NCBI GenBank assembly: GCA_963969495.1
Contig: OZ018321.1
Location: forward strand, 138,036,685-138,100,684
DNA: 64,000 bases
From: Ceratothoa steindachneri
Taxonomy: Eukaryota; Arthropoda; Malacostraca; Isopoda; Cymothoidae
Direction of reading: 5' to 3'
Shown here: one piece after another, positions 15,042 through 64,000 of the stretch
Layout of the letters: each line of letters starts with the position of its first letter
How positions within the stretch are numbered: the stretch's first letter is position 1
Position numbers and translations under genes: made by a program
Notes under the pieces: generated by a model
What the model was told of the DNA's origin: nothing
Seen by the model: only the letters and a program-made list of their open reading frames with translations
Databases searched by the model: none

Positions 15042-15571
15042 GGTGACCCTCTTTTGATTACGGGACGCAATAGCTCATCACCTCTCGCAGTTGCCCGCAC
15101 TGCGAGAGGTGCTTACAAGCCCGGCAGAGCCAGGCGCCGCCATTCGGGACCACCCCTCCCGCCTGGTGGCCTGGCAGTCCTTTGGCATGGCGGCTCCACC
15201 TTGGACACGGCGTAAAAAATATAGGTTGTGAAGAGGAGAGGAAAAGGGATGTGAGGAAGATGTGGGTGGGGATGAAGCAGGTTGTTAAAAAACCCCCATC
15301 CCGAACCGGAGCTCAGGGGTTAGGGAACAATGTCCCCTCCCCCCTCAGCCCCGATCCGGGGTGGTTGGCTTGAGAAGAAGGTCAGCATTCTACCCTGTGA
15401 AATTAGAGGCTGACCAGAGAAAGTTGTGGGAGAGGTTGTATGAAAAGCGACGAGGTAGGGGAGAAATCGGGCTATCTGAAGGAAGGAAGAGAGGCTAAGC
15501 TGGGGCCGGACGGAGTGCTGGATCCCGTCAGCACGGCGGCCAGGATGGCAAATCGCCGCGCCCCTTACGGG

Positions 15572-16324: not shown

Positions 16325-17516
16325 GTGATGGAGTTCGGGGATGAAAGTGAGCATGAGTGTCGGAATGTATGCATTGATTGTGGTGTAGTTGGTGAGGGGT
16401 ATACATGTGTTGTATGTGGGCTGCGTGAATGCATTGTAGATTTAGAGGGGATGAGAAGGCAGGATTTAGACAGGATATGTAGGCTGGAGGGGTTAGTTGC
16501 TGAGCTCAGGAGGGAACTTAGTGTTAGGCCTAGAGCTGGGAATAGGTTAGGTGGTGAGGTAGGCCAGTTAGATGTTTCAGGTGAAGGTAGAGGGCCAGTT
16601 AGATGTTTCAGGTGAAGGTAGAGGGCCAGTGGAGGAGGTAGGATGTGATAGTTCTAGTGATAGTGAAGTTAGCCCCCTTAGATTAGTTAGAAATAGGCCT
16701 AGTGAGGATGGGGGACAGTGGAGAGTGGTTAGGAAACATGAAGCTAGGGAGGCTTCTCCTGTTCTTTGTGAGAATAGGGTTGCCTCTGTTGAGGTGGTTA
16801 GCCAGGGGGAGAATAGGTGTGTGAGTCAGAGGGACACAGATCCTATTAGCTTGACTAATAGATTCAGTGCCCTAAGAGAGGAAGTAACTGGAAGTGATAT
16901 GACTAATGGGGGTGGGGGTGGAGTTCGAGTGACTGGTAGTTTGAATGAGAATAGGAGTGGGGATGGAGTTAGGTCTGTGGGGGTTAGGAATAGGAGTCTG
17001 ACTGAAGTGCTTGTGATGGGTGATTCGCGAGTTAGATATTTAGATAGGAAGTTGAATGCAAGTAGATTGAATGGTTTGAGGGTGTGTTTGCCGGGTGCTG
17101 GAGTGAGAGATCTGTCTGATAGGTATGAGGAACTGGTGTCTGGCTGTGCAAGGGATGCGGTTGTGATTACACATGTAGGAGTGAATGATGTGAAGAAAGT
17201 GGGTGCATGTGAGTTACGTGAGAGGTACAAGAGGTTGATTGAAAAGGTGAAAGAAAGTAGAATGAAAGGTGTTGTGACAGGTGTGCTTCCAAGAATGGAT
17301 GTTGGGGTAGAATGGATGTCTCGTGCAATTGGGCTGAATGATTATGTGAGGAGGATGTGTGAGATGGAAGGTGTCATGTTTGTGGATGTGTGGGATAGGT
17401 TTGTTGGAATGAAAGAAATGTATGCGATGGATGGACTGCATTTGAGTAGGAGGGGGGTAGATGTGTTGTGGGAGGAGTATGATCGTGTTATTAGGTCTTT
17501 GCGGGTGGGAAACTAG
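16325..17516 (+). pseudogene. CR1-C ORF1, zinc-finger plus SGNH esterase, frameshifted
   Basis: The first part (16325-16615) has a Cys-rich block CIDCGVVGEGYTCVVCGLREC, then a Leu-rich likely coiled coil (DLDRICRLEGLVAELRREL). After a frame break it resumes to 17516 with a linker and an SGNH-hydrolase-like domain: VLVMGDSRVRYLD (nucleophile Ser in GDS), VVITHVGVND (Asn block), VVTGVLPRMD, and MDGLHLSRRGVDVL (Asp and His of D-x-x-H). All four blocks look intact. The break comes from a perfect 31-bp tandem duplication (16562-16592 and 16593-16623); with one copy the two halves would be one frame of about 387 codons. In CR1 elements ORF1 binds RNA and may act on lipids or membranes; that role is inferred from the family. 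Confidence 0.83.
16562..16623 (+). repeat. 31-bp tandem duplication in CR1-C ORF1
   Basis: Two perfect adjacent copies starting GGCCAGTTAGATG. The unit length is one more than a multiple of three, so it shifts the frame. A third partial start (GGCCAGT) follows because the unit begins with those bases. Confidence 0.92.
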
Positions 17517-17539
17517 ATACTAATAGTGGTCAGGGAATT

Positions 17540-20411
17540 ATGAGAGGACATTATAGTACTGAAAGTAGAATGGACTTGGCAGATAACAGAAATAGGTTCC
17601 AAGGCGATAGAGGTGAGGTCATTCAAGTTTCAAGAGGTGCTTCAGGGATAGGGGGGTTAAATTGTTTCTATACAAATGCTCGTAGTCTTAGAAACAAGAA
17701 GGATGAGCTATTTAGTTATATTAGCAATGAGGATATAGATATATTATGCGTTACTGAATCATGGGTTAATGAAATAGAATTTAGTGACACTATAAGTGAA
17801 TTTGATTTTCAGGGCTATAATATGTACATTAGTCAAAGGACAGGTAGGATTGGTGGAGGAATAATTATCTATATAAAAAACAACATTGTTTCAAGTTTAA
17901 ATACTTCAATAAAGCAGGATGGAGTTGAGTCACTTTGGATAGATATTAGGTTCAGTAAAAATAGAATGGTGCATTTGGGAGCTTTTTACAGGCCACCTGG
18001 GCAGACTGATGATATAGATGAACTAATGATAAGGGAAATAAGTAAGGGATGTGAAACAGATGCAGTTATTATTGGGGACTTCAACTTAAACTCTGTGGAC
18101 TGGGAAAATATGATAGGTAGGGATAGAACAAGTGGCAGGTTCATAGAATGCTTTGAGGATAATTTTTTGAATCAATTTGTTAACGATTCAACGAGGGGGG
18201 ACAATATATTAGATTTAGTACTTTCTAACAGCGATCATTTAGTTCAAGAATTGACTGTTGGGGAAGCATTGGAAAATAGTGACCATCAGATAGTTCGTTT
18301 TAACTTGGGAATTAAGAAGGGTAAAATAACCGAGAATGCTGTAAAAGTTCCAAATTTTCATAAGGAAGACTATGTAAAACTTTGAAGCTTGCTAAATTTG
18401 GTAGACTGGGATGTAGAATTCAGAGGTAAAAATGCTTATGGGATGTGGGATACTTTCAAGCATATAATAAATGTAGTCCAAGAGCAATGTATCCCAATGA
18501 AAGGTATTAGAAATAAAAGTAGGAAACCATTATGGTGGAATCAGGAGATAGCTAGAAAAATTTCAGAGAAGAAAAGGGCATATAAAAAATTACAGGTAGA
18601 AAATAATATTCAAAATTTAAGTGATTATAGAATGGCTAGGAATGAGTTAAATAAGATTCTAAAGAAGAACAAAAGGGTGTCAGAAATTAAATTAGCTCAG
18701 GATAGCAACAAAGATCCTAGAAAGTTCTTTAGTTACTATAAAATTAATAACAAGTCTGGCAGAGTTAAAATAGGACCTATCAAATATGAAGAGGTTGTGA
18801 GAGAAACTGATGAGGAAATAGTTGAGGTACTAAATGGTCATTTTGCATCAGTATTTACAAAGGAGAAACTAAATAGTCTTATGTATAGTACTCATGGGTC
18901 AGGGAAAGAGGTGTTTACTAACATTAGTGTGGATTTGGAGGAAGATAAAAGGACTAATAGGTGAGTTAGATGCTACCAAGTCCTCCGGCCCTGATAATAT
19001 TCATTCTAGGATACTTAAAGAAGGGGTAGAAAGTATCTCCATAGCTCTGGAGAAGTTGTATACTAGGTCACTGGAATATGGAGAAATACCCAATGATTGG
19101 AAGAGAGCGAATGTAGTCCCCATTTTCAAGAAGGGTAGTAAAGAGGATCCAAATAACTTTAGACTGGTTAGCCTAACTCCTGTAGTCTGTAAAATTCTTG
19201 AGAAAATAGTTAAAAAAGGGATTTGCCAACATCTAGAGAGGGAGGGGTTAATCAGCGATGCTCAGCATGGGTTTAGATCAGGTAGATCATGTTTGGCTAA
19301 TTTACTAGTCTTTCTGGAGTTCGTAACAAATCAAGTAGATAAGGCAGAAAATGTAGATGTAATTTACTTGGATTTTAGTAAAGCATTTGATAAGGTACCA
19401 CATAGGAGACTAGTTCATAGATTAAAAATGATCGGGATATGTGGGGGTGTTTCAAATTGGATAGCTGAGTGGCTGAAAGACAGGAAGCAAAGGGTAGTGC
19501 TAAATGGTGTAAAGTCAGAGTGGAGGGATGTTATCAGTGGGGTTCCTCAGGGATCAGTTCTCGGTCCATTATTATTTGTCATCTATATAAATGATCTTGG
19601 GGAGGCAGTAAATAATAAAGTGTCAATTTTTGCGGATGATACCAAATTAGCAGCTGTAGTTAAAGATATTGATGATAATTTTAAAGTGCAGGGGGATTTA
19701 AATAAATTGTTATCCTCGGCACATAGTGGCAAATGACTTCCAACCTTGATAAGTGCAAAGTTATTAACATGGGAAAAGATAAAAGAGAATTTAACTATGA
19801 AATGGATGGGCATTGGCTGAGCTCAGTAGAGGATGAGAAAGATCTAGGAGTAGTAATAGATAAGTCATTAAGGTTTTCTAAGCAGTGTATTGAAGCAAGA
19901 AATAGGGCAAATAGAGTGCTGGGTTTCATTAAGAGAAATGTCAGTTACAAAAGTAACGAGGTTATTCTAAAACTCTATAACTCTTATGTTAGGCCACATC
20001 TAGAGTACATTTTAGACAAGATATTAACCTTCTCAAGCCAGTGCAACAAAGATTATTTCTTCCCTGAGGCACCTTGAATATACAGATAGACTGAGGGTAT
20101 TAAATATGTTCTCATTCGAAAGGAGGCGTGTGAGAGGGGATATGATTGAGCTCTTTAAAAAAAATTCTGGGATAGATAAATTGGATGTTAGCAAGTTTTT
20201 TGAGTTAGATGATGGAAATCGGACTAGAGGTCACCACTTGAAAATTAAAAAGCAAGGGTGTAGGTTGGATTTAAGAAACTATTTTTTCACCAATAGAGTG
20301 GTAGACTTCTGGAACAAATTGCCGCCGAGGGTAGTAGGTAGTCCAAATTTAAATGTATTTAAGAGTAGGTTGGATGAGTTTATGGGGAGGGAAGGTTGTG
20401 ATGGTTCCTAA
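17540..20411 (+). pseudogene. CR1-C ORF2, endonuclease plus reverse transcriptase, broken
   Basis: EN at about 17650-18330: NCFYTNARSLRNKKDEL, ILCVTESWVNE, HLGAFYRPPG, IIGDFNLNSVDW, ENSDHQIVRFN. A TGA at 18383-18385 then interrupts the same frame. The linker continues at 18389 (KPLWWNQEIARKISEKKRAY). A frameshift near 18950 precedes [71 protein letters not shown] and the catalytic FADDTK (about 19630-19650). Another shift near 19735 leads into LDKCKVINMGKD, a third near 20080 into the C-terminal block with FFTNRVVDFWNKLPP, and the frame ends at 20411. Intact elements would encode one protein for target nicking and reverse transcription. Confidence 0.88.
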
Positions 20412-23683: not shown

Positions 23684-23865
23684 CAATTAATATTGATAAT
23701 ACTTCTCATATTCAGGGCGCATGGTAGATGGTGCTGTTAGTAGGCTACAATAGTTTTTTTTATGACGTCAGACGGTAGCTTCAGATGTAACCAATCACGG
23801 TGTTATATTTTTTTTTTGGGGGGGGGGGGGATTTGTAATTTTTAGTGTATTATTTACTAAATATA

Positions 23866-25063
23866 GTATAGATGGAGTTAAATCTGAGTGGGGGTGTGTT
23901 AGCAGTGGAGTTCCTCAAGGATCTGTTTTGGGTCCCTTGCTATTCTTAATTTATATTAATGATCTTGACATAGGTATAAGTAGTGACCTGAGTAAATTTG
24001 CTGATGATACTAAGCTAGGTAGGGCCATTAGGGCTGATTCTGATGCTGTTGTAATGCAGGAGGAATTGACCATTCTGTCCAATTGGGCCGAGAAATGGCA
24101 AATGAAGTTTAACATAGACAAATGTAGTGTACTTAGTATAGGTAGAAATAATCCATTGAATAGTTATAAATTAAATGGCAGAATTTTAGGGAGGACTGAT
24201 TGTGAGAGAGACTTGGGTATTTTGGTAAGTTCGGACCTTCGTCCTAGAAAGCAATGTCTGGATGCTAAGAATAAAGCTAATAGGATATTGGGATTCATTA
24301 GGAGGAGTGTAAGCAATAAGAGTGCTGAAGTCATTCTAAAACTGTATCTGGCGCTAGTTAGGCCTCATCTAGACTATGCAGTACAATTTTGGTCACCATA
24401 TTATAGGAAGGATATTGATTTGCTTGAGTCTGTGCAGAGAAGGATGACAAAGATGATTGGTGGGCTAAGGAACTTACCCTATGGTGAAAGGCTCAGAAAA
24501 CTAAATCTACATACATTGGAAAGGAGAAGAGTCAGAGGGGAATTGATTGAAGTCTTCAAATGGGTAAAAGGATATAATAAAGGGGATCTGGGTAAGGTTC
24601 TTATACTTAGTGAACATGACAGGACACGTAGCAATGGGTTTAAGCTTGATAAGTATAGGTTTAGGAAGGAGATTGGGAGGAATTGGTTTACAAATCGTGT
24701 GGTAGATGAATGGAATAGGCTCACTAGGCATGTGATAGAAGCCTCCTCTCTGGGTAGTTTTAAGAATAGATTAGATAAATATATGGATGAAGCTGCTAGA
24801 TGGGACTGACTTTTTTTATGTACATATGTATATATTTTTCTAAGGAGTGGGAAGATTATATTTTGCGGTTGCATGAATGGACATAATCCTCTGGATGCAT
24901 TTTATGTATATTGTAGATTGGATCTGACGAACTCCTGTTAAGGGTGACAATGTTGTTGACTTTTCTCTGGTAAGAGGTCTTTTGTGTGTTGAATGGAACA
25001 GGAGCTGCCAAGTGTGGGCCATGAATGGTCTTTTGCGGTCTCCTTCTTTTCTTATGTTCTTAA
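23866..25063 (+). mobile_element. CR1-B LINE, 5'-truncated, nested in T copy 1
   Basis: The insertion begins inside RT and ends TTCTTTTCTTATGTTCT. Comparison with T copy 2 (TTATTAAATATCTGCCCC near 28327-28344) shows TAAATAT on both sides of the LINE (before about 23866 and from about 25064), a probable short target duplication. Confidence 0.8.
23928..24809 (+). CDS. CR1-B reverse transcriptase, C-terminal 293 codons
   Basis: An open frame beginning MGPLLFLIYINDLDIG, i.e. right after the SGVPQGSVL block, which is also readable just upstream (about 23903-23935). It contains the catalytic FADDTKLG block near residue 25, NWAEKWQMKFNIDKCSVL, the GRILGRTDCERDLGILVS thumb region, RPHLDYAVQFWSPYYRKDI and the C-terminal block RNWFTNRVVDEWNRL. 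The EN and N-terminal RT are absent through 5' truncation, so the copy cannot move. The frame is intact and differs little from the copy at 26335-27100, which suggests recent activity of the subfamily. Confidence 0.87.
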   Translation: MGPLLFLIYINDLDIGISSDLSKFADDTKLGRAIRADSDAVVMQEELTILSNWAEKWQMKFNIDKCSVLSIGRNNPLNSYKLNGRILGRTDCERDLGILVSSDLRPRKQCLDAKNKANRILGFIRRSVSNKSAEVILKLYLALVRPHLDYAVQFWSPYYRKDIDLLESVQRRMTKMIGGLRNLPYGERLRKLNLHTLERRRVRGELIEVFKWVKGYNKGDLGKVLILSEHDRTRSNGFKLDKYRFRKEIGRNWFTNRVVDEWNRLTRHVIEASSLGSFKNRLDKYMDEAARWD

Positions 25064-34722: not shown

Positions 34723-35373
34723 TCAAGCGTGACGAAGGCTTTTCAAAGAGATGAACCATGATTGAAGACTCATGAACGTAGTTTTGAATCTATTGCACGA
34801 ATTTTTAACATCCTCGCACACTTCTAACCTCAAATCAGTCAATCCAACACAAAGATCTGCAAAATCTGCTCTTCTCAAATCAAGTTTCTTCGATTTACCA
34901 GTCGCAGACTCTACCTTGGGGACATTGACTACAGAGAGATCCTCAATGATGTCATCCTCAGAGGTGAAAACCAAGTCGAGGGTATTATTGCTTCTCGTTG
35001 GCTTTCTCACCCATTGAGTGAGGAACTCGTCGTTCGCGAACTCCCAGAGAAGTGCGTTCTCGCCACAGGGTTCTCTGATTTCCCAGTCAACTTGGGTGTT
35101 GAAGTCTCCCATGACGATACACACTCTGTCTTCAACAAGTTCACCCAGTAGCCGGTACAGCTCCCTGTCCTTTTCAACGAGTTGGGCAGGGGGTTTATAA
35201 ATCAGCAGGGTACTGTATCTGGCAGGACCTATATCTAGGTCTACACCTAGGAGCTCGTGGTCGGATATAATGTTGCAGTTCATCGTTTTGAATGTATCCC
35301 TAACATACAACATCACACCGCCACCCTCTTTGTCTAGCCTATCTGTTAGAAAAAGTTGGTAGCTAGGAATCAT
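34723..35373 (-). pseudogene. CR1-A LINE endonuclease domain, copy 2
   Basis: A 216-codon frame: GGGVMLYVRDTFKTMNC, LLGVDLDIGPARYSTLL, CIVMGDFNTQVDWEI (the GDFN active-site block), LLLVxSE-type strands and SKKLDLRRADFADL. Compared with copies 1 and 4, the segment with GGSDHR, the catalytic SDH box, is missing between EDLSVVN and VPKVESAT. This deletion would kill the nuclease. The frame ends at 34723; RT is absent. Upstream on the same strand lies its ORF1, split by the Gypsy element. Confidence 0.82.
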
Positions 35374-35535
35374 GAATTCTCCCTAAAAATCTCGTTTGGA
35401 GGTTTTTATCCATGACTCCGTTATGGCCACTATCTCGGTTTCTTCCGTTGTACAAGGCCACGAAGTTCAAGAAACTTGTTTCTGATTGACCTCCCATTGA
35501 ACAGAAGAACTTTCAGGGAGTCCCCGAATGTAAGA

Positions 35536-36110
35536 CTATTTACCCTCTTCCGTTTCCGTGCTTGCTGTTGGCGAGGTGTCACTCCTCTTAGCGACCTCCG
35601 AAAAGGTCGTACCAGGAGTGACTCGAGCGTACTGGCGCACGTCCGCTTTCACTCTGGGCCGGACACTCATTTGGGTCCTCTCTACGACATCCTGGATCAT
35701 GTTCGACAGAAAAGATTTTCTTTTAAATGAAAAATGTACCCCATCCGTTTGGTAGAGATCATTCCTACCATAAAAGGTGCGGTATAGGTCCTCAAAAAAG
35801 ACCTCTGCCGTACAAAAATCTGACAGGCGCTGGTTTAAAAAGACGTTAGTCGAGTGAGCGGTGGGTGTTGGACCTCTCCTCGGGAGTATCTCGACCACAA
35901 CACGCATGCGGGCTTTCAGCACACAGTCGTCCACGGTACCCATGACTGTGCGGAGGATTTTATCCGTAGGGCCTACCCTACTTCCTTTCAGGTAGAGTTC
36001 GTTGCCACTTACCATCAGAGCAAAAACTGAGCTCTCAGCAATCTGAGATTTCTCCGCCTCTACTCTTATGTGTCGGTTACCCTGTCCCGGCAGGCAGCTT
36101 ACCTTCACAC
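35536..36110 (-). pseudogene. CR1-A ORF1 (esterase), 3' part, copy 2
   Basis: It continues the ORF1 reading from 45050 after the Gypsy insertion: KVSCLPGQGNRHIRVEAEKS, FALMVSGNELYLKG, VVVEILPRRGPTPTAHSTN, VFFEDLYRTFYGRNDL and TDGVHFSFKRKSFL (Asp and His of the SGNH D-x-x-H block), ending with a 50-residue tail beyond where copy 1 stops. Apart from the insertion, this ORF1 reads openly here, so it was probably intact when the Gypsy landed. Confidence 0.82.
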
Positions 36111-36962
36111 TGTAGCGGACCGAAAATAGATCTCTAATCCCAATCGATAATCGATCCAACCCGCTTCCTACACTGTCCGGACGTGAGAAATCGAGGGAGA
36201 ATAAAACGGATTGTATATACAGTCCCTTTACTTACAAAAAAAATACAATGATAGTTACAGTTTATATTTACAACAATTTTATATTTACTAGGGAAGTGTG
36301 CACACTTCAAAATGAGGCTAAATTCCCCAATCAAAATACGATACCAAACGAGAATCTTATAACCGGCGGATACAACAATTTACTTATATTCTACACAAAA
36401 CAAAAAAAACACAACCACAACCGAATGAAAAGGGGGCACGCGCTATCACTTGCTGGAGGTGGGTGGTAGTTGGCTAACTTAGAAGGAGGCAGGATTGTCA
36501 ACGAAGGCAGGTATGGCGGTTCAGGTGGTTAGAGACACGAAAGCCCTCCTCTCAGGGCTGGATGGAGCACTCGTCTATAGAACCCCTCTTGCTACCAGTC
36601 CACACTTCCACTCTCTCTTTCCAGAATAACGCTTTGATAAAAGATTAATTTAAACAAAGTACAATCTTATTATAGTGATATCTCAAAATTAGCTACTATC
36701 TTTCCAGAATAACGCTTTGATAAAAGATTAATTTAAACAAAGTACAATCTTATTATAGTGATATCTCAAAATTAGCTACTATCTTTCCAGAATAACGCCT
36801 GGAAAGAAAGAAAAACATGGTAATCATTTTATACATGAAATAAACAAAAATAAAACAAACCCATTCCCATTCACACACATTCTTACAGAGGGAGGGAGAG
36901 GGTACTGAGAAAAGGGGTGGGAGAATGGCCCTTTTACACACACTCACATTCGCCCCACCACA
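36111..36962 (-). repeat. 3' LTR of the dual-protease Gypsy
   Basis: 852 bp. In element sense it starts TGTGGTGGGGCGAATG and ends CGGTCCGCTACA, a TG...CA structure. It includes an internal tandem block of about 85 bp with the TCTTTCCAGAATAACGC motif in two full copies and a third start. It differs from the 5' LTR at single bases such as GGACCG versus GGGCCG and CAACGA versus CATTGA. Confidence 0.95.
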
Positions 36963-36975
36963 CCCCTCCTTCCCT
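36963..36975 (-). other. Polypurine tract
   Basis: In element sense AGGGAAGGAGGGG lies directly before the 3' LTR, the position used to prime plus-strand DNA synthesis. Confidence 0.9.
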
Positions 36976-37011
36976 AAGCCATTTGACCAGCCACTCACTA
37001 AACCCTTTCAA

Positions 37012-40000
37012 TCACTCTCCACGGTACCACTTGTGCTCAATCGCACCCTTCTGCACCCATTCACACTCTTCTACTGGTCCCTGGCTACGCGTAGCAATTA
37101 GTCGGGGTTGTTCGTCAGTCGTCCTGTCAGTCTCATTGTCACTATTTATCATCTCATCAACCATACTCTTAGCCCTCATTACCAGTTCTCCCATCTCACG
37201 ACAGAATTCTTTCATACTCTTCCGTTCAGAACCCTCACTCTTCATACCCCCATTCATCAGCTCCTCACTCACAGCTCTCATCCAACTCAAGGTACATTCT
37301 TGCGAAACAGACAGGTCACTCACATCCCCTGTATTCTCAACAGGCATACCAGAAACCCCTTCGACTGGTTCCCACCAGAAACCTGAAAAATCAGCCACTT
37401 CATCATTCACTACATCAAACTCACCCCTACTATTACCATTCATAAAACCCGAAAAATCAGCCACACTAGGTTCATTCTGCCCAAACACACTATCATTCAT
37501 ACTGTTCCCAAAACCAGAAAAATCAGGCACAGGCAGCTCACTCACTCGTCTACTTATACCAGCCAAATCACTCACCTGTTTACGCAAAAACTCAATCTCC
37601 CTTTCAAGATCCCCCATACCAGAAACACTCTGCTCAGACTTACTTTCATTCGTACTTGCATTCTTCCTTTCACCCTTCCTTGTACGCTTTCTACCCCTCG
37701 AGACTAAGACTAGCTCTTTCCCAGACAGATCCATACTATCACATTCAATCTCATCATCATGCACTTTACCTCTCTCTCTACACAGTCCATACACCGGATG
37801 GCTCACCAGGTAGTCAGGAGGTTCTCTCCATCTCCTTAACTGACTCTGATGAGCCCGCACTCTCTCAGTCATGCCGTCATTCAAACTCTCCAAAACATAC
37901 GTTACCCCATTTTCCCAAACTCTCACAACTCTATAAGGTCCATCAAACTTCTCACTCATCTTTGATACATTCAACCTACCCTTCACTTCTTTCACCTTCA
38001 ATACTTTTGTACCTAATTCAAATGAACGGAACCTTTCATGCGCCTCACGCCATACACTCTGCTCACTTTCACTCAAACGAAACCTATCTTTCACTCGCCT
38101 TTCAAAATTCATCACAAACTGACATGGGGACATTCCAGTTGCACTATGCACAGTTGAATTATACGCCCACAACACTCTCCCCAGACACACATCCCAGTCA
38201 TTCACTGTCGTACTCATCATTCTCAACATCTCACACAAGGTTCTTATAGTCCGTTCAGCCAATCCATTTGAAGACGGTACATACGGAGTTGTTCTCACAT
38301 GCTCCACACCATTCTCTCTCAACATTTGCTCAAACACTTCCCCTACAAATTCAGGACCATTATCACTCAGACATCTTCTAGGCTTCCATACACACATAGG
38401 AAAAAACAACTGCTCAACCACACGCGCAACAGTCACACTCCTTTTATCTCTCACAGGCGCTGCATACACAAACTTACTTTTATGGTCAACCATCACAACC
38501 ATACCAACATTCACAGCTCTCGTACGCGGCAAAGACACACAATCAATCACTACCAATTCAAACGGTTCTTTCGCATCAACTTTCAACATCGGTGGTTTCA
38601 CTTGCACACCTTGCACCTTTCGCTTCTGACACCTTTCACACGGGGTTGCAACATCATTCACAACAGTTCTCAGAAACGGGTGGAACACATGCTCCTTCAT
38701 ACACTCCCACAGCTTAAACTTACCCATATGCCCATAATTATCATGCACAACCTTCACCAGACCAATCATACCAACTAAGGACATCACAGGTACATACATA
38801 TCATCACCACCCTTCACATGCCTCACAAAATATACAACATCCATACAAACAACAAAATCCTTAGCATACCTTTTAAAATCACTTAAACACTCTGGCCATT
38901 CATTCAAATCAACACGCATCATTACACACCTCTTCAACTCACTAACAAAAGGACACATCTCTTGCATCTCTAGAATATAATCATCACTTAAAATCTCGTT
39001 CTCATCATCCATGATCAACTCAATCATACCGCAAAACTTGACAACATTCTTTGCACACTCATTCAACCTCATCACCTCACATTCACCTTTCATAAGACGA
39101 TCCTTATCAGCATCCAAAGACGAATCATTCAATCTCATAAAGTCTACACCAAGCAAGAAACAACAAGGCATTTGCTCACCTTTCAGAATCACAAAGTCAT
39201 GCTTCACATTCACACCATTACCCAAACTCACTTTCAGACTAACCTGTTCCCATGCCACTATCATGCCATTCCCTAATCCACTTATCCGTAACTTCACAGG
39301 TTTATGCTCGCAACATCTAAACTCTTCATACTTACTCAGAATATTCTCATTCACTAAAGACACTTGCGCTCCAGTATCAATCAAACCACAGAACAACCTT
39401 TCACCAACTTTCACTCTCGCTTCCATCATATCAGGTCCACCATGTTCGCAATACACAGAAGGAACAAGCACACCAACATCAGCACTGATATCCACACTGT
39501 CATTAACTCCCATATCATCACTCAACACACACTCATCTTCATCCAGACAATCATTCTTCTCTCTTATATATGAACACTTTTCAATTACCCAATTGTAGTG
39601 CACACCGCTCAAACATTGCAGATGTACCACATTAGGATTCAAACCCTTCATCTTCTCATCCTTGTACACAATCGGCCTCTCACCACCAAAGTGCACATAA
39701 ACAATCACTCCATACAAACGACTCACTACAATCAACACTTCCTGAAATGGCGGGACCCCTTGCATACACATCGCTCTCAATTCTTTCATGAAGTTCCGCA
39801 CCTTTGCCATACCAATGCTTTCAGGCTTCCTACACACTTCATTCATTACCTCCTTCCTTAAATCATCTACACTATCGGGCACTCTCACATCTACTCCATC
39901 ACTCTTCAAATCTTGCAAGCCATTCCATACACTCTCAAACAAGGAATCACCACCACCCTTACTCTCTTTTCCATTCATAATTCCTTTCGGCAAATACTCA

Positions 40001-42309
40001 GGATCACTCACTCCACACACATTTTCATCATTCGTACCAGGATACCTTGACATCAAATCAGCCACTCCATTCCGTTCACCAGGCACATACTCAATCACAT
40101 AGTCAAAGTCACTCAAATCTTCCAAAGTCCTTGCAATCCTACTATCAGCCCACTTCATACGCTGCAGATACATAAGAGGTTGATGATCGGTTTTTATCAC
40201 AAACCTCACACCATACAAAAATGGACGCAACACTTTCAAACAATATCTTATCGCAGCCAGCTCTCGTTCCACAGTCGAATACTTTCGTTCTGCAACATTC
40301 ATAGCCTTGGATACATACCCAATTATTCGCCTGACATTCTCTCCATTCAAACGCTGCTCTTGCATCAGAAAACCTCCCATACAATACCCACTCGCATCTG
40401 TATACAATTCAAGCATTTTAGCATTTACACTATAATCTGGGTAAGCCAATTCAACATCTTCAGCCGCTGCCTCTTTCAGTCTCTCATACGCCTCATTCAT
40501 CTTATCATTCCACTTGACAACCGTACTACCTTTCTTGCCCATCCACTCAGTCAGAGGCTTACTCACACCAGAACAATCACGTATAAACTTTCGCTGGAAC
40601 TCAATCAAACCCAAAAATGACTTCAGTTGCTTCACAGTCACCAGTTTAGGAAACATTCGCACCTTCTCAACATACTTCGATGATTTTCGCAATCCATTCT
40701 CACTCACCATATGCCCAAGGAATTCCACTTCTTTCGCAAACCATTCACACTTCGCCACTTTCACCTTCACACCAACACTCTCCAACGTTCTCAACACATC
40801 ATTCACCAATCTCATATGCTCCTCAAAAGTCTCAGTCATAATCAAAATATCATCTATAAACGCAATCACATTCTTACTCGCAAACTTACTCAACACAACA
40901 TTCATTGCCCGCTGGAAGGCTCCGGGAGCATTAGCCAACCCAAAGCTGAGGTTCCGGAACTGGTAATGCCTCTTTGAGGAAGAGAAGGCAGTTACTGGCC
41001 GGCTCTCCTCAGCAATGGGCATCTGGTAATACCCCCATACCAGATCCAGCTTCGTAAACCACTCCATCCCATGCATACTATACACACACTCAGATACCAC
41101 ACACATCGGAAACCTTTCTTTCACAGTCCTTTCATTCACCTTTCGATAATCCACACACAGACGCAATCTTCCATCCGGCTTACGTACAGGTACAATTGGA
41201 CTATTCCATGCACTCTCGCTCTCTTCAATCACCCCCAATTGCTCCAATTCCAAACACTGCTCCTCAATCTCATCAGCAACCGGACGTGGGAAATGCCTCG
41301 GCCGCTGATAGATTGGGGAGTCCTCCTTCAGGACAATCTTGAATTCCGGGAGCTTTGCAACCCCGAAATCCAGATCACCCTTACTGAGGGCTCCCTTTCG
41401 CTCAAATATCATTCGATACACATCCTCCCTTTCATACTCAGTCAAACATCCATCCAATTTCACCATGTCCTTCACCTCATTATACATCCATTCACATGTC
41501 TTTTCATTCGCAACATTCACCCTGATATCCGTACTATCATCCATACCTACCTCATCAACAGTGGAGAGGTGGCCCAGTACATCTCCGACTTGGATTCCCC
41601 TCACCTGCCCTTTCACACTGGGGTCCGCCTGCACACATACAAAAGGATCATTCATTCTCATCAAGCCATCAAACACACAAGCAACACGCCTTACCTTATA
41701 ACACGCATCTGTTCCATCCAATATCACAGTGTTCTCACTCACATTCAAACTAACATCCTTACTCCAACTCACTCTAACAGACACCCTTTCACCCTTCACA
41801 AGCCTTACATTCTCCATAGCAGTCACCTCAATACCAGTAAACACACTCCTCAAAACGCTACCATCTTTCCCTACATACAACTTATACACCCCATTTTTAC
41901 CAATCTTTCTCTCAATCTGATCACTCGCAGGATGCACAACCATACGATTCATTTTCATAAAATCATAGCCCAAAATCACACCATACTCACTACTCACCTT
42001 ATCAATCACAGAAAATTCACATTCATTCATCATCATACCATGCATTCGAACAGCTGACCTTATCATTCCAATCACAGGCACTCTCCTATTACCAATACCT
42101 ACCAAACTACCCTTGCACTCAGACAGGAGGGCTTTCTCGCTAAACTTGTCATACACATCTTTATACACCAAGCTCGCCTTGCATCCAGAATCTATTAAAG
42201 CCAAACACTCAATTCCATTCAACTCCACCTTCACACTCAGACACTCATACTTCCTACCAGACAGCACTTTCACACTAGACAGACTTACCAACACATTACT
42301 CACACTCAT
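37012..42309 (-). CDS. Gypsy Pol polyprotein with PR1, RT, RNase H, PR2 and integrase
   Basis: 1765 codons without a stop. PR1: CLALIDSGCKASLVYK with Asp near 40 and GVILGYDFM. RT: about 320-510, WFTKLDLVWGYYQMPI and active site FIDDIL near 485. RNase H: LYTDASGY near 636, through DLMSRYPG near 750. PR2: a second retropepsin-like domain, FCGLIDTGAQVSLVNENIL (Asp near 977), ISGLGNG and FLLGVDFMRLN. Integrase: H2C2 zinc block near 1189-1223 and D,D35E core with VVIDCV (about 1255), LSDNGPEF (about 1316) and GLAERT (about 1352). The C-terminal tail carries three DFSGF motifs. The frame is -1 to gag and opens just before the gag stop; internal ATG 42309 is probably not the real start, since a frameshift at 42351-42357 would fuse it to Gag. 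Confidence 0.95.
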   Translation of the reverse strand: MSVSNVLVSLSSVKVLSGRKYECLSVKVELNGIECLALIDSGCKASLVYKDVYDKFSEKALLSECKGSLVGIGNRRVPVIGMIRSAVRMHGMMMNECEFSVIDKVSSEYGVILGYDFMKMNRMVVHPASDQIERKIGKNGVYKLYVGKDGSVLRSVFTGIEVTAMENVRLVKGERVSVRVSWSKDVSLNVSENTVILDGTDACYKVRRVACVFDGLMRMNDPFVCVQADPSVKGQVRGIQVGDVLGHLSTVDEVGMDDSTDIRVNVANEKTCEWMYNEVKDMVKLDGCLTEYEREDVYRMIFERKGALSKGDLDFGVAKLPEFKIVLKEDSPIYQRPRHFPRPVADEIEEQCLELEQLGVIEESESAWNSPIVPVRKPDGRLRLCVDYRKVNERTVKERFPMCVVSECVYSMHGMEWFTKLDLVWGYYQMPIAEESRPVTAFSSSKRHYQFRNLSFGLANAPGAFQRAMNVVLSKFASKNVIAFIDDILIMTETFEEHMRLVNDVLRTLESVGVKVKVAKCEWFAKEVEFLGHMVSENGLRKSSKYVEKVRMFPKLVTVKQLKSFLGLIEFQRKFIRDCSGVSKPLTEWMGKKGSTVVKWNDKMNEAYERLKEAAAEDVELAYPDYSVNAKMLELYTDASGYCMGGFLMQEQRLNGENVRRIIGYVSKAMNVAERKYSTVERELAAIRYCLKVLRPFLYGVRFVIKTDHQPLMYLQRMKWADSRIARTLEDLSDFDYVIEYVPGERNGVADLMSRYPGTNDENVCGVSDPEYLPKGIMNGKESKGGGDSLFESVWNGLQDLKSDGVDVRVPDSVDDLRKEVMNEVCRKPESIGMAKVRNFMKELRAMCMQGVPPFQEVLIVVSRLYGVIVYVHFGGERPIVYKDEKMKGLNPNVVHLQCLSGVHYNWVIEKCSYIREKNDCLDEDECVLSDDMGVNDSVDISADVGVLVPSVYCEHGGPDMMEARVKVGERLFCGLIDTGAQVSLVNENILSKYEEFRCCEHKPVKLRISGLGNGMIVAWEQVSLKVSLGNGVNVKHDFVILKGEQMPCCFLLGVDFMRLNDSSLDADKDRLMKGECEVMRLNECAKNVVKFCGMIELIMDDENEILSDDYILEMQEMCPFVSELKRCVMMRVDLNEWPECLSDFKRYAKDFVVCMDVVYFVRHVKGGDDMYVPVMSLVGMIGLVKVVHDNYGHMGKFKLWECMKEHVFHPFLRTVVNDVATPCERCQKRKVQGVQVKPPMLKVDAKEPFELVVIDCVSLPRTRAVNVGMVVMVDHKSKFVYAAPVRDKRSVTVARVVEQLFFPMCVWKPRRCLSDNGPEFVGEVFEQMLRENGVEHVRTTPYVPSSNGLAERTIRTLCEMLRMMSTTVNDWDVCLGRVLWAYNSTVHSATGMSPCQFVMNFERRVKDRFRLSESEQSVWREAHERFRSFELGTKVLKVKEVKGRLNVSKMSEKFDGPYRVVRVWENGVTYVLESLNDGMTERVRAHQSQLRRWREPPDYLVSHPVYGLCRERGKVHDDEIECDSMDLSGKELVLVSRGRKRTRKGERKNASTNESKSEQSVSGMGDLEREIEFLRKQVSDLAGISRRVSELPVPDFSGFGNSMNDSVFGQNEPSVADFSGFMNGNSRGEFDVVNDEVADFSGFWWEPVEGVSGMPVENTGDVSDLSVSQECTLSWMRAVSEELMNGGMKSEGSERKSMKEFCREMGELVMRAKSMVDEMINSDNETDRTTDEQPRLIATRSQGPVEECEWVQKGAIEHKWYRGE

Positions 42310-42347
42310 GCACCCAGAGGATACTTCAGCAGGTACCCTCTTACCAT

Positions 42348-44057
42348 TCAGTTTCCCGCTTCAGACTTTCCATTCACACCTTGCGCTCTCACTCTAATCC
42401 AACACTTTTCACTTGAATGTCCTTCCATCGCACAATAGCTACATACATTCCTCTGGTCACGACACATCCTTGCATAATGACCAGCCTTTCCACAATTACC
42501 ACATGCATATTTCATACTTTCCCCACCAGTTGCTCCACCATTCAACCTCGGACAATCTTTCTTCAAATGGCCTATTTCTTTACACTCGAAGCACTCTTTC
42601 ACACTTTCCTGGCAATCCTTTATCATATGCCCTTTCTTACCACACCCAAAACATGCACCAGATGTCCACCTACATTCTGCCAACATATGACCTTTCCTTC
42701 CACACCGACGACATTCCTCAATCTTTCTCCCACCACTCAGTCTCTCATTTGCTGGGACATACCTCGGTTTCTCTCTCATATATCCGTTCCCACGCTTGAA
42801 ATTCATCTGCCTCCTTCCATTCGACCACCCTCCATTTGCCCATCCATTCTGCCGGCCCAGGAAGTTTGACATCACTCCAGCTGGTGCAGCCTTCAGGGCA
42901 TCCCTGTAGCTGACAAACTGATGGAGTGGATGAAAGCTCCTGGGCTTCTTACCTCCAACATTCACACTGTACCATCCATCCTCTTCTAGATCGCTTTCAT
43001 CATCAAATCGTCCATCTTCTAACAGTTCCAACACATCCTCCCACATCAACCGTTCACCTGTCAGTCTCACTCTCTCTTTCCTCTTTCCACTCAGCCATTC
43101 ACTCACCTTTCGCGGGATCGTGTCCAAAAACTTCCTCATGAGTGGTTTACATTCATTTACATCATCATCACCATACCTCGTTCTTGCCATACTCTCAAGC
43201 CTATGTGCATACATATTCACACTTTCACTCTTCCCCATTCGAGCCTTCTCAAATTCATTCACCCTTTTATACTTCACACTCTTTTTCATTCGTTTCACCT
43301 GCCCAATCAATCTCTTCTTCACTACATCGTACTTTGGCTCTCCCACACTCGTTATCACTCGCAAGAACTCCAACACTTTCCCATCCAAACAATCTCCCAG
43401 AACACTCACCCAGTGACCCTTGTTCTGCGGGTACTTGAGCTTGCAGTACCGCTCAAAATCCCCGAAGAACTCATCCATACTCTTTCCCCCATGCAATCTA
43501 AACTTATCAATCCTTGGCACTTCCCTAATCAAAATTCCTTTCCCCACGTTCACTTCACTCTCCGAAGAGCTACTCTCGGTCTCACTCATTCCAATCATAT
43601 TGTCACTCTCTCCCTCATCTGAGTATAGCGAATCCACACTCTTCCCTCTCGCCTTCCTATCCTTAACCTTAGAACCATGCTTACTTCCTCTCTTACTTTC
43701 CACTCTCTTCCATTCACCCCCTTTCCTACCACTCTCAGTATCTTCTTTAGACTCAATCATACTGCCATCCATTCCATTTAGCGGAGTCCCTTCAGTAGGA
43801 GCAAGGGTCAGGGTTGTAGGTCCTGGGGCTGATCCAGCCCCTATCATCATGTTATACAGGTCCTGCATCCGTCGGTCCGTCTGATCCTGTCGGTCTCCCA
43901 TTTCCTTCTTCATCCTATCAGTCTTTTCATTCATCCCTTTTATTTTATTCTCCATTCCCTCCATCATTCCCCGCAACATTTCACACTCCTCTTCTTTCTT
44001 TCTCAACTCCAGTCTCAATCGCACTACTTCTTCATTCAACGTTTCCGCTACAGCCAT
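42348..44057 (-). CDS. Gypsy Gag protein
   Basis: 569 codons from ATG 44057 (NNACAATGGCT context); an in-frame ATG at 44099 would add 14 residues. The N-terminus is a heptad-rich coiled coil (NEEVVRLRLELRKKEEECEM through MQDLYNMM), followed by an acidic/Ser-rich linker. A capsid-like retrotrans_gag region comes next (FRLHGGKSMDEFFGDFERYC, HWVSVLGDCLDGKVLEFL, VNEFEKARMGKSESVNMYAH). It ends in five zinc knuckles between about 42420 and 42720: CRRCGRKGHMLAEC, CFGCGKKGHMIKDC, CFECKEIGHLKKDC, CGNCGKAGHYARMC, CSYCAMEGHSSEKC. It packages element RNA into particles. The last sense codons GGA AAC are part of a slippery heptamer directly before the TGA stop. Confidence 0.93.
   Translation of the reverse strand: MAVAETLNEEVVRLRLELRKKEEECEMLRGMMEGMENKIKGMNEKTDRMKKEMGDRQDQTDRRMQDLYNMMIGAGSAPGPTTLTLAPTEGTPLNGMDGSMIESKEDTESGRKGGEWKRVESKRGSKHGSKVKDRKARGKSVDSLYSDEGESDNMIGMSETESSSSESEVNVGKGILIREVPRIDKFRLHGGKSMDEFFGDFERYCKLKYPQNKGHWVSVLGDCLDGKVLEFLRVITSVGEPKYDVVKKRLIGQVKRMKKSVKYKRVNEFEKARMGKSESVNMYAHRLESMARTRYGDDDVNECKPLMRKFLDTIPRKVSEWLSGKRKERVRLTGERLMWEDVLELLEDGRFDDESDLEEDGWYSVNVGGKKPRSFHPLHQFVSYRDALKAAPAGVMSNFLGRQNGWANGGWSNGRRQMNFKRGNGYMREKPRYVPANERLSGGRKIEECRRCGRKGHMLAECRWTSGACFGCGKKGHMIKDCQESVKECFECKEIGHLKKDCPRLNGGATGGESMKYACGNCGKAGHYARMCRDQRNVCSYCAMEGHSSEKCWIRVRAQGVNGKSEAGN
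42351..42357 (-). promoter_or_regulatory. Programmed -1 ribosomal frameshift heptamer GGGAAAC
   Basis: In element sense G GGA AAC is followed immediately by the gag stop TGA (42350-42348). It fits X XXY YYZ. A -1 slip reads GGG AAA CTG and enters the pol frame, which is closed by a stop only a few codons upstream, so this is the narrow window where the slip must happen. Whether a downstream pseudoknot exists was not computed. Confidence 0.75.
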
Positions 44058-44173
44058 TGTTCCCAAGTTAGTAAAAAGATAGGAGAAGGGAAAAATCAAT
44101 CAAACTACTTGTCACACTAATTGGGTATGGACTGCAATCCAATCCAGTCACGCTCCCAGTTTCGAAGTCTCAC

Positions 44174-44191
44174 GCCCCTATTCGGGCGCCA
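44174..44191 (-). other. Primer-binding site, tRNA-Lys-like
   Basis: Two bases inside the 5' LTR the element-sense strand reads TGGCGCCCGAATAGGGGC. It differs at two positions from TGGCGCCCGAACAGGGAC, the well-known site complementary to the 3' end of tRNA-Lys(UUU). Confidence 0.8.
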
Positions 44192-44193
44192 AA

Positions 44194-45045
44194 TGTAGCG
44201 GGCCGAAAATAGATCTCTAATCCCAATCGATAATCGATCCAACCCGCTTCCTACACTGTCCGGACGTGAGAAATCGAGGGAGAATAAAACGGATTGTATA
44301 TACAGTCCCTTTACTTACAAAAAAAATACAATGATAGTTACAGTTTATATTTACAACAATTTTATATTTACTAGGGAAGTGTGCACACTTCAAAATGAGG
44401 CTAAATTCCCCAATCAAAATACGATACCAAACGAGAATCTTATAACCGGCGGATACAACAATTTACTTATATTCTACACAAAACAAAAAAAACACAACCA
44501 CAACCGAATGAAAAGGGGGCACGCGCTATCACTTGCTGGAGGTGGGTGGTAGTTGGCTAACTTAGAAGGAGGCAGGATTGTCATTGAAGGCAGGTATGGC
44601 GGTTCAGGTGGTTAGAGACACGAAAGCCCTCCTCTCAGGGCTGGGTGGAGCACTCGTCTATAGAACCCCTCTTGCTACCAGTCCACACTTCCACTCTCTC
44701 TTTCCAGAATAACGCTTTGATAAAAGATTAATTTAAACAAAGTACAATCTTATTATAGTGATATCTCAAAATTAGCTACTATCTTTCCAGAATAACGCTT
44801 TGATAAAAGATTAATTTAAACAAAGTACAATCTTATTATAGTGATATCTCAAAATTAGCTACTATCTTTCCAGAATAACGCCTGGAAAGAAAGAAAAACA
44901 TGGTAATCATTTTATACATGAAATAAACAAAAATAAAACAAACCCATTCCCATTCACACACATTCTTACAGAGGGAGGGAGAGGGTACTGAGAAAAGGGT
45001 TGGGAGAATGGCCCTTTTACACACACTCACATTCGCCCCACCACA
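44194..45045 (-). repeat. 5' LTR of the dual-protease Gypsy
   Basis: 852 bp, the same length and nearly the same sequence as 36111-36962. It is the presumed promoter of the element. It ends next to the ACAC duplication at 45046-45049. Confidence 0.95.
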
Positions 45046-45049
45046 ACAC

Positions 45050-62506: not shown

Positions 62507-64000
62507 CTACATTTTGATTTCATATAATTTAAATGATGAGCATTCATCCTGCCACAACTGAAAAATATATTCCCTTATAGAGGGAAAGGAATCTCGATCA
62601 GGCAATGCAGAGTTATCTGGGGGCACAGAGTAGGCTGAACGGGCAAGCTGATCAGCCCTCTCATTGCCCAGGACCCCTACATACCCGGGGACACAACAAA
62701 ATATAACTCGATTTAGGGACGTATTCTGGACTAGCCAGTAGCAAGTTTCTGTGACTAAGGGATGGGAAGTATTAAAAGAGTGAATTGTATGTAAAACATT
62801 CTTAGAGTCGGAGAAAATGACAAAATCTTTGAAAGGTAAAGTTTGGATCAATCTAAAAGCAAAAAGAATGGCTGATAGTTCAGCGGTAAAAATAGAAGAT
62901 GCTGGCGGCAATGAGAAAATTAACAACTCTCCTGAGTAGGTGGCTGTGGCACCCACGCCACGGTCTGATTTGGAACCATCCGTGTATATCGGGCAGTGTT
63001 GTATATGTGAGGTTGCATGCTTGAGGAACAGGCTCTTAAGGGAGCAAGGGTCCACGGACCACTTGCTAAGGCTCCACATGCTGGCAAAAACTGTGGGAGG
63101 TGGAGCACACCCAACTAGGGGTCAGCGACGAGGGAATGGCAAAGACCCTTAGAACACTCAGGTTGGAGAGATGATCTCCAATCTGTAGCCTCAGGGGGTG
63201 GAATAGCTATACACGCATCTGTAAACCTCTGATACAGGGGCCTGCTCTACACATAAGAAATTTCGCATGCAGATTTGGAGTCGATGATAGGGCAAGGGGA
63301 GCACCCCACCCTCACACTATAGGCTGTTAACGGGATAACTGCAAAAGGCTCCACTGGACCACAGTATTTGACGATCACTGCCCCACGACATGTGAGAGTG
63401 GACTTTCAAAATGTCTAAACCTCGCAGACACCCCGTTCAAAGACGGTGTAGGTGTGGTAACCAGGATAATTTGGTATCAAGAGTTACGCCCAGAAACCGA
63501 AACTCAGAAACGAACTCTATCTCTACACCTCATAGAGAGATAGGTGGCGGAACAAGAGCCCCTCTACCCCGGTGGAAATACATTGCCTTAGATTTGCTCG
63601 CGGAAAAGCGGAATCCCCTAAGCTGTGCACTTTTCCAGACCGCATCGACTGCCAGTTGCAGCCGATGTGCTGCTGATGGAAGGCGAGGCAAGGAATAGTA
63701 TAGTGCCAAGTCATCGACGAAATGGGTCGCAGATACACCCTCTGGGAGAGAGGAAATGATATCACTGATCGCGATTAAGAAACATAAAACACTTAAAACG
63801 CTACCATGGGGAACTCCCTCCTCTTGGGGTTGCAAGTCAGAGTAGGTGTCTCCAACACGAACCATAAAGGATCGAGATGCTAACATGCTTTGAATAAAAA
63901 AAGGTAAAATATCTCTCATACCCCAAACGTATAGCTGCTTCAAGACGCCGTATATCTATGTTGTATCATACGCTTTCTCAATGTCCAAAAAATATGGCCA
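62507..64000 (-). pseudogene. I-like LINE fragment: RT and RNase H, runs off the window
   Basis: On the minus strand at the window edge it reads FLDIEKAYDTT, a stop, then YGVLKQLY. 63943-63530 is open with FMVRVGDTYSDLQPQEEGVP, HGSVLSVLCFLIAISDI and the catalytic THFVDDLALYY. The thumb (63100-63530) is broken. 63079-62507 is an open RNase H: CPIYTDGSKSDRGVGATATY, FTAELSAILFAF, VIFSDSKNVLHTI and CCVPGYVGVLGNERADQLA. The arrangement equals the intact element at 8826-15041, but the sequence belongs to another family (PHG for PQG in RT). The frame stops at 62507 next to (TA)n, short of the usual C-terminal Cys-His block. Confidence 0.87.

Follow-up and report, generated by a model that had tools for sequence, protein, structure and literature searches.

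A Ty3/Gypsy retrotransposon lineage with an OTU fold and a second retropepsin domain between RNase H and integrase

A single protease is the usual assumption for the Pol polyprotein of a retroelement. OTU domains have been described in DNA transposons: in Ginger1 a C-terminal OTU domain, described as a cysteine protease, is joined to a Gypsy-like integrase, and OTU domains are found in Helitrons as well as in Ginger1 transposases (PMC2836005, in the sections consulted); in Helentrons an OTU domain is joined to transposition proteins (PMC6431247, likewise in part). Here we analyzed a 64,000-nt stretch of the genome of the isopod Ceratothoa steindachneri (GCA_963969495.1, contig OZ018321.1, positions 138,036,685 to 138,100,684), referred to as the window. 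It contains a complete Ty3/Gypsy element (36111-45045, minus strand) whose Pol has both an OTU fold and a second retropepsin domain (PR2) between RNase H and integrase, in addition to the usual retropepsin (PR1) ahead of reverse transcriptase (RT). An earlier note, made from the letters alone, knew of no described family with two proteases in such an order, and we found none either: the literature searched, mostly by titles and abstracts, reported no second retropepsin or OTU in a Gypsy Pol, and the consulted sections of PMC11943222 describe neither. Unlabelled members with OTU and PR2 may well be present in Repbase or GyDB.

All features of the element lie on the minus strand and are given in window positions; residue numbers refer to the pol frame (37012..42309), which has 1765 codons from its first ATG and is open up to 42360. 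The frame begins with PR1 (approximately residues 20-151, 41857..42252; catalytic D40 in DSG), followed by RT (residues 375-534, 40708..41187; FIDD at 484) and RNase H (approximately residues 600-757, 40039..40512). Next come the OTU fold (approximately residues 772-912, 39574..39996; GGGDS at 785 with S789 at the Cys position, R818, H904, and N906) and PR2 (approximately residues 951-1085, 39055..39459; D978-T-G). The integrase (IN) consists of an H2C2 zinc finger (residues 1185-1232, 38614..38757) and a core (residues 1247-1345, 38275..38571), in which we take D1256 and D1316, together with E1352 just past the Pfam match, to be catalytic. RT and RNase H precede the integrase and a motif that we presume to be of the GPY/F type follows it (residues 1457-1461, 37927..37941), as in Ty3/Gypsy elements; Ty3 is also the closest solved polymerase to the window RT. 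The OTU and PR2 folds were seen by structure prediction, and PR1 and PR2 each have a D-T/S-G triplet in a retropepsin fold. The 1765-codon frame that the earlier note had read from the letters, with its two distinct retropepsins and the order PR1-RT-RNaseH-PR2-INT, is thus real, and passes the fold check of both regions which it had proposed; the roughly 430-residue gap that it had marked between RNase H and H2C2 does hold PR2, but it also holds the OTU fold, which was missed.

To place the element among its relatives, we collected a set of 184 Pol proteins, consisting of the window protein, 71 from OTU-directed searches, and 112 from an RT-seeded search. The first search, seeded with window residues 770-1180, gave 67 relatives that are 22-49% identical to the window over that stretch; the second, seeded with the OTU of P0068, gave four more. 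The third, seeded with the RT of P0068, gave 5503 matches, from which the best 120 were taken, 112 of them new. OTU was found in 139/184 proteins and OTU together with PR2 in 105/184; within the RT-seeded subset, 67/112 had an OTU match and 35 of those 67 had PR2 as well. The remaining OTU proteins (34/139) have no PR2 match, although three (P0077, P0159, and P0164) end 65 residues or less past the OTU and cannot be judged. The median distance from RNase H to H2C2 was 436 residues (n = 102) in proteins that have both domains, 296 (n = 31) where OTU stands without PR2, and 65 (n = 28) where OTU is absent, and every group includes at least one outlier; the difference of about 140 residues between the first two groups corresponds to one retropepsin. 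In the host assembly (3.93 Gb, 529 contigs), we scored 27 pol copies out of 75437 first-look candidates, so that their number is a lower bound. They are 98-100% identical, 24/27 have no internal stops, and all 27 retain the key residues of PR2 and OTU. An artefact, in which the second protease would be a motif arising by chance, the product of a wrong join in the assembly, or an insertion confined to a single copy, has a negligible probability: the same order is found in these 27 copies and in 104 other proteins, and the fold and profile matches are far above those of shuffled sequences, and these results refute it. We concluded that the layout with OTU and PR2 marks a lineage and is not a single odd copy.

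Some members of the set deserve separate mention. P0017, a Pol with OTU and PR2, also has precomputed Pfam domains whose accessions we read as SH3-type. P0148 and P0175 are OTU-only Gypsy Pols labelled as coming from a Bacteroidota and a Cyanobacteria metagenome-assembled genome, respectively, and are probably eukaryotic contamination. Single-sequence and profile scans of viral contigs gave no confirmed relative. The viral structures listed include entries for OTU and for proteases.

The distribution of the two added domains is nested on the trees. A FastTree phylogeny of RT-RNaseH with 176 rows (100 OTU+PR2, 34 OTU only, and 42 without OTU) needed two changes, the fewest possible, and placed the OTU+PR2 rows in a single clade (support 99) within a single clade of all OTU rows (support 100). 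IQ-TREE analysis of 58 of the 176 rows supported the OTU+PR2 clade and the OTU clade at 100/100 each, and none of 200 bootstrap trees (0%) grouped the OTU-only rows as one. With the root placed on the rows that lack OTU, the most economical history has OTU gained once and PR2 gained once afterwards; the alternative history has at least two losses of PR2. Support is weak for two of the branches within the OTU-only rows (81/47 and 82/23).

The source of PR2 was also considered. The PR2 domains form one clade separate from all PR1 domains (support 99 in one tree and 98 in another), PR2 matches by sequence relatives of DDI1 in the PDB (E = 0.018 to 0.066), and its best protease folds are those of DDI1. 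These results could point to capture of PR2 from a host DDI1-like gene instead of duplication of PR1, an origin that we consider unlikely. The DDI1 likeness was rejected as a sign of capture because PR1 has the same likeness. Approximately unbiased (AU) tests, on a tree of 130 columns with long branches, rejected none of three placements of PR2 (p = 0.81, 0.79, and 0.85). Of the comparison between duplication and capture proposed in the earlier note, therefore, the separate grouping of PR2 is established, but the placement tests do not choose a source.

Both retropepsins keep their catalytic residue, as the earlier note had stated for the single frame: the Asp is present in 120/123 aligned PR1 rows, the other three being gaps, and in 105/105 PR2 rows. 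The PR2 triplet is DTG or DSG in 97/105, and this conservation spans proteins with only about 25% identity to the window in the PR2 region. From these residues we predict that PR2 is a second, functional protease, which probably acts for the integrase side of Pol. A different role, as a non-catalytic binding or assembly domain with a retropepsin fold, would accommodate the eight altered triplets (DGG in three; DMG, DCG, DNG, DIG, and DTC in one each) and the evolutionary rate of PR2, which is close to that of PR1 and faster than that of OTU, RT, or IN. We regard this role as very doubtful, since an Asp kept in every row and a D-T/S-G kept in nearly all of them at such low identity are hard to explain without catalysis.

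PR2 also has a C-x-H/C...C...C set that is absent from the aligned PR1 domains. In the window these residues are C954 at the N-terminal edge of PR2, H956, C974 at four positions ahead of the catalytic D978, and C1050 at the same distance ahead of the G of LLG (all within 39055..39459). The set is present in 97/105 PR2 (CHCC in 87 and CCCC in 10) and altered in the other eight; all four rows without C974 also lack H956 and C1050, and two of those four are sisters. The exchange of His and Cys and the joint loss of ligands suggest that the set is a zinc site, and by analogy to known retropepsins such a metal would link the N-terminal strand of PR2 with its core. The metal-type set also bears on the possibility that PR1 and PR2 are the two halves of one heterodimer, each contributing one catalytic Asp, with PR2 inactive by itself. 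Retropepsin active sites need two subunits, and conservation of the Asp in both domains fits such a pairing. However, PR1-type domains occur alone in the 34 OTU elements that have no PR2 match (including the three that end early) and also in the Gypsy rows that lack OTU, so self-pairing of PR1 is evidently possible, and the four-residue set belongs to PR2 only. We find a heterodimer improbable.

To estimate selection within the family, the ratio of nonsynonymous to synonymous polymorphism (pN/pS) was calculated from 23 copies, with four of the five copies of a tandem array left out. The values were 0.11 for OTU (p = 5e-6), 0.19 for IN (p = 3e-7), 0.39 for PR1 (p = 0.049), and 0.61 for RT-RNaseH (p = 0.050). 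The value for PR2, 0.63, is compatible with neutrality (p = 0.13) and gives no evidence for selection on PR2 within the family. On purifying selection of PR2, which the earlier note had proposed to look for, the deep conservation across proteins is strong, and the copies of this genome show no significant effect. Part of the PR2 value comes from four copies (L005, L011, L016, and L020) whose sequence diverges at approximately pol residues 900-1100; L020 has 17 codon differences over PR2 as compared with 0-3 per 100 codons elsewhere. This divergent patch is probably a mosaic that arose by template switching between subfamilies. The tandem array (G000:C9:269671-355148) holds five pol copies (L006-L009 and L017) about 20,046 bases apart and 99% identical to that of the window; it is an array that holds the element.

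Next, we examined the OTU fold. It resembles OTUD3 and OTUD5 in structure, and its profile matched OTUD3 (E = 8.7e-9) and OTUD5 (E = 6.4e-7) in the PDB; in the profile alignment the Ser faces the Cys of OTUD3 and H-Y-N faces H-Y-D. Pfam gave no match on the window OTU piece; the fold became visible only through the alignment and the model. Where OTU cysteine proteases have their catalytic Cys, the window has Ser, and it retains the His and Asn of the triad (H904 and N906). The nucleophile position in the 139 OTU rows is Ser in 114, Ala in 10, Thr in 7, Met in 2, Cys in 1, and a gap in 5, and R818 is present in all 139. In the 105 rows that also have PR2, this position is Ser in 100, Ala in 4, and Cys in 1 (P0124), the His is present in 105/105, and the last triad residue is Asn in 104 and Asp in 1. 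In the 34 OTU-only rows it is Ser in 14, Thr in 7, Ala in 6, Met in 2, and a gap in 5, and the His is found in 19/34. The triad is thus intact alongside PR2 and often lost without it, a comparison made without regard to the relatedness of the rows, and this hints that OTU and PR2 work together.

An OTU of this kind probably binds ubiquitin without cutting it, judging from its residues. A working serine hydrolase, with Ser-His-Asn in place of Cys-His-Asn, would account for the complete Ser-His-Asn/Asp in 100/105 OTU+PR2 elements and for a pN/pS that is the lowest among the domains. We consider it unlikely, because Ala occurs with intact His and Asn in 4/105 rows scattered over the tree, and Thr, Met, or a gap stands at the nucleophile in 14/34 OTU-only rows. 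A change of Cys to Ser usually abolishes the activity of Cys proteases, and the Asp that we take to lie three residues before the nucleophile in OTU enzymes is Gly in the window. An apparent invariance of Ser (68/68) was rejected: that search was seeded by the same region and was biased, and the RT-seeded set gave Ala, Thr, Met, and Cys. P0124, with the lone Cys, is nested among Ser rows, and its PR2 reads DGG. Three named OTU-only members (P0079, P0086, and P0089) come from the isopod Armadillidium vulgare; the two among them with Ala at the OTU position retain the His and Asn.

Taken together, we place slightly more than even confidence in the following combined reading. The lineage gained its extra domains stepwise between RNase H and integrase, the OTU fold first and the second retropepsin later. 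PR1 would perform the usual Gag-Pol maturation. PR2 would be a separately folded aspartic protease, active as a homodimer with a zinc staple joining its N-terminal strand to the core, and its cuts would most likely fall on the integrase side of Pol, which would put the release of integrase under separate control. The OTU, with Ser for Cys, would most likely bind ubiquitin or a ubiquitin-like protein without hydrolysis, and this binding would tie maturation or the integrase to a host ubiquitin signal. Two non-redundant proteases are supported by the order OTU-PR2-INT, by the conservation of both active sites, and by the persistence of PR2 since one gain. Several points weigh against this reading: the protein set is non-random (71 members through OTU-directed searches and 112 through the best 120 of 5503 RT matches), 8/105 PR2 have other triplets, 4/105 persist without the metal set, and the pN/pS of PR2 among copies does not fall significantly below neutral. 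For the OTU, Ala at the nucleophile in 10/139 argues against essential chemistry, and Ser in 100/105 with intact His-Asn argues against a plain dead fold. A bolder version, to which we give little credence, is a ubiquitin-gated module: the OTU would act through Ser-His-Asn as a hydrolase or sensor for ubiquitin-marked Pol or host chromatin and be coupled to a zinc-stapled PR2 that releases integrase, with the two proteases timed apart.

The remaining parts of the element are those of an LTR (long terminal repeat) retrotransposon. A target-site duplication ACAC (36107..36110 and 45046-45049) flanks two LTRs of 852 bp with TG...CA ends, the 3′ LTR (36111..36962) having five mismatches to the 5′ LTR (44194..45045). 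What we take to be the polypurine tract, AGGGAAGGAGGGG (36963..36975), adjoins the 3′ LTR, and the primer-binding site TGGCGCCCGAA (44181..44191) is presumably of the lysine-tRNA type. The gag frame (42348..44099, 583 codons) encodes several CCHC zinc knuckles. The best explanation of the window element is a recently active Ty3/Gypsy LTR retrotransposon. The pol frame, open to 42360, overlaps the end of gag, and a heptamer G GGA AAC in the gag frame (42351..42357), which fits the frameshift consensus, stands directly before the gag stop (42348-42350); of six locus files, GGGAAAC is also found in the four that are readable in that orientation (L002, L003, L005, and L006), while L001, which is the window copy itself, and L004 run in the opposite orientation. 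A 9-bp stem-loop (42316..42341; minimum free energy -15.1) lies 9 nt downstream of the heptamer. The heptamer and the stem suggest that pol is expressed via -1 frameshifting. Compared with shuffled sequences, the stem gave no significant difference (z = -1.14, 27 of 200). The C-terminal tail of pol has three DFSGF repeats (residues 1596, 1618, and 1640), and a D/E-F/Y-S/T-G-F motif is present in 22/85 long OTU+PR2 proteins. Elsewhere in the window are pieces of the long interspersed nuclear element (LINE) type at 8829-15074 (minus), 16572-19736 (plus), 23766-24806 (plus), 34726-35382 (minus), and 62510-63121 (minus); they include an endonuclease-RT-RNase H frame of 2082 codons, and a series of frames, for a GDSL lipase, an endonuclease, and an RT in this order, which we take to be CR1/L2-like. 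An Rfam scan of the whole window gave no match.

With two proteases, and an OTU placed after RNase H and ahead of PR2, this lineage offers a way to test if maturation on the integrase side can run separately and if host ubiquitin signals are read by a retroelement. Enzymologists would find interest both in a retropepsin with a conserved metal-type set and in an OTU with a lasting Cys-to-Ser change. As compared with known systems, the element shares with Ty3/Gypsy elements the LTRs, primer-binding site, polypurine tract, 4-bp duplication, gag zinc knuckles, PR-RT-RNaseH-H2C2-INT order, and GPY/F-type motif, and differs in the OTU fold and second retropepsin between RNase H and H2C2. PR1 and PR2 resemble the DDI1 retropepsin (RVP) and retroviral proteases in fold, D-T/S-G, and hydrophobic-hydrophobic-Gly motifs, but PR2 lies within Pol after RNase H and has a metal-type set of its own. 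The OTU resembles OTUD3 and OTUD5 in fold, sequence profile, and the positions of His and Asn/Asp, whereas its nucleophile position is Ser and it lies inside a retrotransposon Pol. Ginger1 and Helitrons/Helentrons likewise have an OTU joined to transposition proteins; they are DNA transposons, and the text consulted on them describes no second retropepsin, the domain that stands beside the OTU in the lineage described here.
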